A program made the position numbers and the translations under genes. 64,000 bases of DNA from Alphaproteobacteria bacterium (GTDB lineage: Bacteria > Pseudomonadota > Alphaproteobacteria > Geminicoccales > Geminicoccaceae), in the NCBI GenBank assembly GCA_026982705.1, contig JALSGP010000027.1, forward strand, positions 1 through 64,000, read 5' to 3'. Positions 969 to 1,938 of the stretch are shown here, one piece after another. Below the pieces are notes generated by a model that saw only the letters and a program-made list of their open reading frames with translations, searched no databases and was not told the origin of the DNA. Numbering within the stretch: the first letter of the stretch is position 1; each line of letters begins with the position of its first letter.

Positions 969-997
969 TTGCGATGGCGGAGGACCGATCCTATATG
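969..997 (+). promoter_or_regulatory. ssrA promoter
   Basis: TTGCGA at 969-974 and TATATG at 992-997 are separated by 17 nt and lie about 7 nt before the expected 5' end of the tmRNA precursor. This is one of the best -35/-10 pairs in the window, in keeping with the high expression of tmRNA genes. Confidence 0.6.
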
Positions 998-1003
998 GGA
1001 GAC

Positions 1004-1340
1004 GTCGGCCGACGGGCCGACTATGGCGATAAATCCCACCCCGACTAGATGCGGCGGACCCGGGGGCGGTACCCGGCGCCTCCACCAGATCTCTCCGCGG
1101 GGGCGAAACAGGTTCGACGCCGCATCGAAAGGGGTGAGGGTTCGCCCGGCATGGCACCGCCGTTATCGGGCCACCCTGACAAGTGCCAACGACAACCGTC
1201 TGGCGCTCGCTGCCTGAGTCCGATCTCGGGTAAGCGCGGCCCGGGGGAGGCCGGGCAACAGAACTCCCCCGCCAAGTCCACGGGCCTCGGCCCGTGGCGG
1301 GGCTCGGAGGGCGCCCGGCAACAGAAGCCCTCCACTTTCG
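1004..1340 (+). ncRNA. ssrA: tmRNA, circularly permuted two-piece form
   Basis: Rescues stalled ribosomes and adds a degradation tag. The acceptor piece comes first and ends ACCA at 1084-1087; the coding piece starts GGGGGCG at 1099. The seven bases 1099-1105 pair fully with 1083-1077, including the G3.U70 pair (1101 with 1081) that directs alanylation. The T stem is 1060-1064 with 1072-1076. Helix P2 joins the two pieces: GATGCGGC (1048-1055) with GCCGCATC (1119-1126). The tag frame runs from GCC at 1185 to TGA at 1215-1217 and encodes ANDNRLALAA. Two pseudoknot-like units sharing CGGCAACAGAA (or CGGGCAACAGAA) follow at about 1244-1270 and 1306-1333. The exact 5' and 3' ends are estimates. 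The order acceptor-then-coding is the alphaproteobacterial arrangement. Confidence 0.95.
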
Positions 1341-1395
1341 TCTCCGCCCGCTTTCTGCCAACATCGCGGCGCACGCGAGGAGGAGCCCGGACCCC

Positions 1396-1938
1396 ATGGC
1401 CGGTGGCCGCGTCGACTATCCCGCCCTCGTGGAGGACGCGCTCCGCGGCGTGGTGCGCGACGTGCTCGCCCGCTTCGCCCGCGGCGAGATCGGGGCGCCG
1501 CACCACTACTACATCACCTTCCTCACCGCCTACCCCGGCGTGGTGATGCCGGACTATCTGCGCGAGCGCTATCCCAACGAGATCACCATCGTCCTCCAGT
1601 ACCAGTACTGGGATCTGGTGGTGGAGGAGGACCGCTTCTCGGTCACCCTCTCCTTCAACAACGTCCACGAGCGGCTCACCGTGCCCTTCCGGGCCATCCG
1701 CATCTTCGCCGATCCTTCCGCGGAATTCGGCCTTTCCTTCGACGTGAAGCTGCCCGAGGCGGCCCCCACGGTGGCCCTGCCGGTGCGCACCGCCGGTGAG
1801 GAGGGGGTGCGGGCGGATGCCGCGGCACCCTCCGAGCGCGCGGCGACGGCACCGGAGGAAGAGCGGGAGCCGGAGGCCCCGGGCGGGTCGCAGGGGGCCG
1901 AGATCGTCACCCTCGACCGCTTCCGTCGCAAGCGCTGA
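1396..1938 (+). CDS. sspB: SspB-family ClpXP adaptor (alpha type)
   Basis: SspB binds the N-terminal half of the tmRNA-encoded tag and tethers tagged proteins to ClpX, speeding their degradation. The 180-residue protein has the substrate-binding fold region at about residues 5-120 (HHYYITFLTAYPGVVMP, ITIVLQYQYWDLVVEEDRF, FSVTLSFNNVHERLTVPF), then an acidic, low-complexity linker and a short conserved tail IVTLDRFRRKR, the position where SspB proteins carry their ClpX-binding motif. The ATG at 1396 follows GAGGAGG; an in-frame upstream ATG at 1294 falls inside the tmRNA and is rejected. It lies about 60 nt after ssrA on the same strand, so tag source and tag adaptor are neighbours. Confidence 0.9.
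   Translation: MAGGRVDYPALVEDALRGVVRDVLARFARGEIGAPHHYYITFLTAYPGVVMPDYLRERYPNEITIVLQYQYWDLVVEEDRFSVTLSFNNVHERLTVPFRAIRIFADPSAEFGLSFDVKLPEAAPTVALPVRTAGEEGVRADAAAPSERAATAPEEEREPEAPGGSQGAEIVTLDRFRRKR

Follow-up and report, generated by a model that had tools for sequence, protein, structure and literature searches.

A tandem copy of the last pseudoknot in a permuted alphaproteobacterial tmRNA encoded upstream of sspB

Introduction

Two forms of the two-piece tmRNAs of alphaproteobacteria are distinguished here: type I RNAs carry a hairpin and a distal pseudoknot and encode a tag of 12 residues, while in type II RNAs the pseudoknot stands right behind a shorter tag. The tmRNA described here resembles the other members of Rfam model RF01849, the two-piece tmRNAs of Caulobacter and Sinorhizobium, in its permuted gene, its acceptor and coding pieces, its promoter box, its ANDN tag and its GGCAACAGAA pseudoknot. 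It differs from them in carrying the last pseudoknot twice, with a hairpin between the copies and one of the pseudoknots directly behind the tag.

The coding piece of two-piece tmRNAs typically has only two pseudoknots, and the last three pseudoknots of E. coli tmRNA are reported to be dispensable in vitro (2014 review, PMC3985003). A 2005 comparative study places pk1, pk2 and pk3 in the coding chain of C. crescentus, where pk4 is reduced to a helix (PMC1168896). A third pseudoknot is therefore not unprecedented in itself, the total varying with the interpretation of the small element that precedes the last pseudoknot; the novelty here lies in the duplication in tandem of that last pseudoknot. 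The same study also describes one tmRNA pseudoknot present as two tandem units, the pk4a and pk4b of cyanobacteria, but there it is another pseudoknot, in another phylum and in a one-piece RNA, with pk4 replaced by two smaller ones (PMC1168896). Duplicated pseudoknots go unmentioned in the accessible part of a 2025 tmRNA database paper (PMC11915505), and no published description of a duplication of the last pseudoknot was found in the literature searched.

For the neighbourhood of the gene, a paper on S. meliloti reports a 5' tmRNA piece of 82 nt, conservation of both tmRNA-flanking genes in alphaproteobacteria and an unlinked smpB (PMC2245857); the word sspB is absent from the main text of that paper, although the conserved flanking genes are reported there. 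Delivery of substrates to ClpXP by SspB has been described for the protein family, with alphaproteobacteria qualified by a "perhaps" in the review (PMC3985003).

Results

A permuted tmRNA gene and sspB on one strand

The window, the 64,000-nt stretch of DNA analysed here, is the start of contig G000:C27. The features discussed below are the following.

969..997, + strand: promoter-like element of ssrA, TTGCGA, 17 nt, TATATG (CTATAT); from sequence, with a signal conserved across 98 loci
about 1004-1336, + strand: tmRNA gene (ssrA); from sequence, ARAGORN and Rfam, with putative ends
1004..1087, + strand: tmRNA acceptor piece, with its CCA end at 1085-1087; from ARAGORN, Rfam and sequence, 5' end inferred
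1099..1336, + strand: tmRNA coding piece, about 238 nt; from sequence and Rfam, 3' end inferred
1185..1217, + strand: tag frame ANDNRLALAA (residue codons 1185-1214) and stop TGA; from ARAGORN
1237..1270, + strand: PKa, the first pseudoknot copy; stem 1 CGGC/GCCG and stem 2 GGGGGAG/CTCCCCC, surrounding GCAACAGAA
1278..1297, + strand: hairpin separating PKa and PKb
1300..1333, + strand: PKb, the second pseudoknot copy; stem 1 GGGC/GCCC and stem 2 GGAGGGC/GCCCTCC, surrounding GCAACAGAA
1396..1938, + strand: sspB, a ClpXP adaptor gene of alphaproteobacterial type, 180 aa, ATG at 1396; from PF04386 and structure relatives

The preliminary description of this DNA had read it as a permuted tmRNA gene followed by sspB on one strand, and independent models bear this out. 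ARAGORN calls a 'tmRNA*' at 995-1308 on the + strand with the tag ANDNRLALAA, and the Rfam model for permuted alphaproteobacterial tmRNA, RF01849, matches 965-1273 with 197.6 bits (E=1.3e-55, cut-off 50), its single match in the 2.66 Mb genome (48 contigs). A second Rfam model, RF04321, matches at 1025-1217. The CCA-bearing acceptor segment lies upstream of the coding segment, which holds the tag frame, and the acceptor stem joins the two pieces, GGGGGCG at 1099-1105 pairing with CGCCTCC at 1077-1083. A phasin gene (PF09361) lies upstream of ssrA; smpB and clpX are both present, each elsewhere in the genome.

Automatic annotation appears to misplace both ends of the gene, because the ARAGORN and Rfam starts overlap the promoter-like element (TTGCGA at 969-974, TATATG at 992-997) and both predictions end before the end of PKb, RF01849 after PKa and ARAGORN within PKb. 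The start at 1004 that had been proposed earlier fits a transcription start near this position, downstream of the TTGCGA-17-TATATG element. The spacing of about 60 nt to sspB claimed with it holds if the RNA ends after PKb (about 1336, 59 nt from the ATG); counted from the Rfam end it is 122 nt.

The sspB product matches PF04386 with 140.4 bits (cut-off 27, E=6.6e-41), and AGGAGGAG stands ahead of its ATG at 1378-1385. Its closest solved relatives are 2nys (AGR_C_3712p, Agrobacterium) and 2qas/2qaz ('Hypothetical protein' / 'SspB Protein'), with all of which it has the core domain in common. With 2nys it also shares the conserved C-terminal tail (EIVTLDRFRRKR; EIVTLDRFRRK aligns with SVVSLDAFRKK), which we take to be the ClpX-binding motif. 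Set against these alphaproteobacterial structures, nothing in the protein is notably different by sequence, and an adaptor role is predicted. An SspB gene of alphaproteobacterial type also turned up in a record titled Thermoanaerobaculia (L073), probably on a wrongly binned contig.

The gene pair is widespread in the class

SspB was found in 38 of 40 genomes, the window's own included. Of 30 loci (L002-L031, the window's own and 29 relatives), 28 gave an ARAGORN tmRNA call, and every one of these tmRNAs precedes sspB on its strand. The class sample comprised 385 genomes, 352 with a match to RF01849 and 338 with one to PF04386. Both genes could be placed in the 86 genomes in which the best 150 of the 352 and the best 150 of the 338 overlap; in 65 of these 86, sspB follows ssrA directly and on one strand with it (gap below 400 between model ends, median 121). 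The order was kept at a distance of 0.8-4.1 kb in another 11; the remaining 10 comprise two same-strand pairs at 31 and 247 kb, one pair on opposite strands and seven on different contigs. With 21 of 86 genomes showing no direct adjacency, linkage is not obligatory. The synteny survey of ssrA-sspB, set beforehand, thus finds adjacency conserved, and by this comparison the pair is an old, ancestral alphaproteobacterial arrangement, ordinary and not peculiar to this genome.

A promoter signal precedes ssrA

A strict sigma-70 promoter and terminator scan found neither, with generic models that are uninformative for a GC-rich genome. For a comparison across loci, 98 of 131 were retained: those in which both the tmRNA and its pseudoknot were identified and sspB begins no more than 500 nt away, each counted once. 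The best promoter score 5' of ssrA averaged 9.14 of 12 against 7.21 in shuffled sequence, for a CTATAT box picked with the Rfam and S. meliloti consensus sequences already known. In the ssrA-sspB gap the score was 6.66 against 6.69 shuffled, i.e. no signal above chance, although alphaproteobacterial promoters fit the consensus poorly and an sspB promoter may have escaped the scan. The median gap from the last pseudoknot to sspB was 72.5 nt, and runs of five T occurred within 70 nt 3' of the last pseudoknot in 12 of the 98 loci. A signal at ssrA with none above chance in the gap fits read-through from ssrA into sspB, and co-transcription is plausible on these grounds. Co-expression or co-inheritance of tag and adaptor had been suggested for this locus: co-inheritance stands, as a property of the class and not of this genome in particular, while co-expression is plausible from the promoter asymmetry.

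The short tag goes with the compact RNA form

The tag of 10 coded residues is, as described earlier, short, but it is also common. Among 94 tags from 100 regions (six gave no ARAGORN hit), 25 had 10 residues, 12 had 11 and 45 had 12; the regions were hand-chosen for spread among the 150 best-scoring tmRNA places, so the proportions do not carry over to the class as a whole. Type I RNAs, taken as those whose last pseudoknot lies at least 60 nt past the stop codon, have tags of 12-13 residues in 37 of 37 cases, in contrast to the 10 of the window. Of 51 type II RNAs, 25 encode 10 residues, 12 encode 11 and 11 encode 12. In these sequences, tag length goes with tmRNA anatomy.

The N-terminal ANDN, whose retention had been pointed out, is indeed general in genomes with SspB: it opens the tag in 88 of 91 of them, a set from which three SspB-less genomes had been taken out first. 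Tags from 24 genomes lacking a PF04386 match began with ANDN in 3 of 18 cases, and in 1 of 14 where the genome was at least 90% complete. The link to SspB is, however, confounded by genome reduction. In a control of 30 small SspB-bearing genomes (at most 1.5 Mb), 10 of the 24 tags found began with ANDN, several ARAGORN tags in this set looking wrong (p=0.10 against 3/18 and 0.03 against 1/14). Genome reduction explains much of the difference, and we do not claim co-evolution in which ANDN is retained owing to SspB.

Two further observations concern the tags. In an SspB-less genus (g46; L285, L286, L287) the sequences ANDNELALAA, ANNNELALAA and AKNNQLALAA give the impression of a motif in decay. 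At L277, L316 and L229 the predicted tags are unusually long and repeat an NDN-like part, as in ANQNNAFVVACNDNAPIAIAA and ANDNFVACNDNYGDAISVAA.

The last pseudoknot is present twice

Behind the tag, PKa and PKb are alike in their loop, GCAACAGAA, a stem 1 of four pairs and a stem 2 of seven. We found this array in 12 sequences, 11 of them distinct, all from the window's family; the two that are identical at the array (L036 and G406) probably represent one genome. Read singly, every one of the 12 forms the full set of pairs (7/7 and 4/4) in PKa and in PKb alike. Seven versions of PKa stem 2 were seen, each of them compensated; its pairing is 100%, and six of its seven pairs show double changes. 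For the array as a whole, 96.4% of 330 cells were paired, compared with 42-54% in slid registers and 83.1% after shuffling. Pairs changed on both sides numbered 13 of 30, the covariation score was 0.391 versus 0.135, and none of 500 shuffles reached the observed paired fraction or number of double changes. The unpaired cells (5.2% in PKb stem 2, two in PKa stem 1) arise because rows are aligned one base out of register, and they pair when the rows are read singly. Minimum-energy folding gave nothing out of the ordinary for the region (z -0.81 to -1.88), as expected of a method that cannot draw pseudoknots.

Judged by this covariation, each copy is a pseudoknot that folds independently. The window tmRNA, as read from its letters, carries PK1 and, behind the tag, two 3' pseudoknots in place of a single one, and so departs from the pattern in which the coding piece has only PK1 and PK2, a pattern that is typical rather than a strict criterion. 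The type II flank beside the tag belongs to PKa and the type II terminal sequence to PKb, an outcome that a tandem duplication would be expected to give. The earlier reading of the locus thus keeps its gene pair and its tag; the tandem pseudoknot was absent from it.

Distribution and origin of the second copy

A two-copy pattern was present in 12 of the 385 genomes of the class sample, inside the tmRNA only in G000, the window's genome, and in G016; among the ten pattern loci fetched (L104-L113), ARAGORN called a tmRNA in these two alone. The unfetched hits (G125, G140 and the second hit of G195) have letters that look unrelated, and that in G125 lies off the contig of its tmRNA. Within the window's family other genera are single-copy, and a congener, G001, keeps a PKa-like copy and has no PKb. 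Outside the window, the tandem second copy turned up in some close relatives only.

The two-copy genomes fall into two clades (genera g7, g9 and g13; g1, g2 and g14) in a tree built from SspB, RpoB and LepA. The tree holds 29 rows of an intended 30, G034 having been left out for too little data, and no LepA of their own was used for G014, G024 and G034. The two-copy character needs a minimum of three changes on it, and a single gain would, by our reading, need five losses. Both clades have AAGUCC ahead of the hairpin, which favours one origin over repeated ones. Type I RNAs usually have AAGUCC as well, but PKb carries type II letters (GCGCGG except in G000 and G002, and CCGGGCAACAG in most), so these sequences do not demonstrate that PKb descends directly from type I.

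Other arrangements were seen among the single-copy RNAs. At four loci (L155, L169, L189, L236) a single pseudoknot with type I-like letters (CGGGGUUCG...CCUGGCAACAG) stands right behind the tag, which suggests more than one origin of the compact form. At L019, L020 and L022 a single pseudoknot is followed directly by a strong GC hairpin that contains GUCC, or by one like it; these loci may preserve what was left of a PKa-hairpin-PKb array once PKb had been lost.

Discussion

The gene pair is ordinary. What is new is a structural variant of a known RNA, for whose extra pseudoknot a function can only be proposed. We propose, with a probability of roughly 0.8, that the locus is an ancestral ssrA-sspB pair whose 3' pseudoknot has become a tandem array, PKa-hairpin-PKb, of nearly interchangeable copies, with sspB expressed partly by read-through. 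The transcript would be cut into the acceptor and coding pieces; the tmRNA, bound by SmpB, would add A-ANDNRLALAA to stalled proteins, and SspB would pass the tagged proteins to ClpXP. At least part of the sspB message would come from the ssrA promoter. The second copy most likely stems from the duplication in tandem of an element that is modular and replaceable. It would lengthen the arc behind the tag while the 3' end of the coding piece stays folded, and would act as a redundant structural module. Its repeated presence and absence among relatives suggests near-interchangeability and no new function. The dispensability in vitro of the last three E. coli pseudoknots, reported in the review, fits gain and loss of such copies (PMC3985003).

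If one promoter supplied both an abundant, stable RNA and an mRNA, processing or partial termination would be needed, which counts against read-through. The two genes may be neighbours only by ancestry and slow rearrangement, sspB having its own promoter and no regulatory link to ssrA. This we regard as a serious but minority possibility: some genomes keep the order at kilobase distances, others have them at long distance, on opposite strands or split between contigs, and smpB is unlinked both here and in S. meliloti (PMC2245857). It sits less well with the short ssrA-sspB gaps of most families and with a promoter signal in the gap that does not exceed shuffles.

The array itself allows two other readings. 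An adaptive role for the extra pseudoknot, for example in stability of the coding piece at high temperature or in tuning the processing of the ssrA-sspB transcript, would agree with the compensatory changes that uphold seven versions of one stem, PKa stem 2, and with the existence of two double-copy clades; it is unlikely, as the congener G001 and many other members of the family do without the copy. Slightly less likely still, the RNA stops behind PKa, where the Rfam model ends, and the hairpin and PKb, lying between PKa and sspB, form a leader or attenuator of sspB outside the tmRNA. The RF01849 end at 1273 agrees with this, as does the strong hairpin directly after the single pseudoknot at L019, L020 and L022. 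Yet it is PKb that bears the terminal sequence of most single-copy relatives (GGGGGGC...GCCCCCC with an ACU tail), the divergent copy is PKa, and the distance from PKb to sspB, about 59-61 nt in the window and 37-127 nt in ten other two-copy loci, resembles theirs, the median over the 98 loci being 72.5 nt.

Under the duplication proposal, the tandem array shows that present models place the 3' end of two-copy tmRNA genes wrongly. At even odds, part of the family has an expanded two-piece tmRNA whose array was built by duplication and collapsed by different routes, and which may represent an intermediate between type I and type II. If this is true, the family is a natural experiment on the purpose of tmRNA pseudoknots: with relatives that have one or two copies, and one congener that has lost one, the question of why tmRNAs have several pseudoknots would become testable in natural RNAs.
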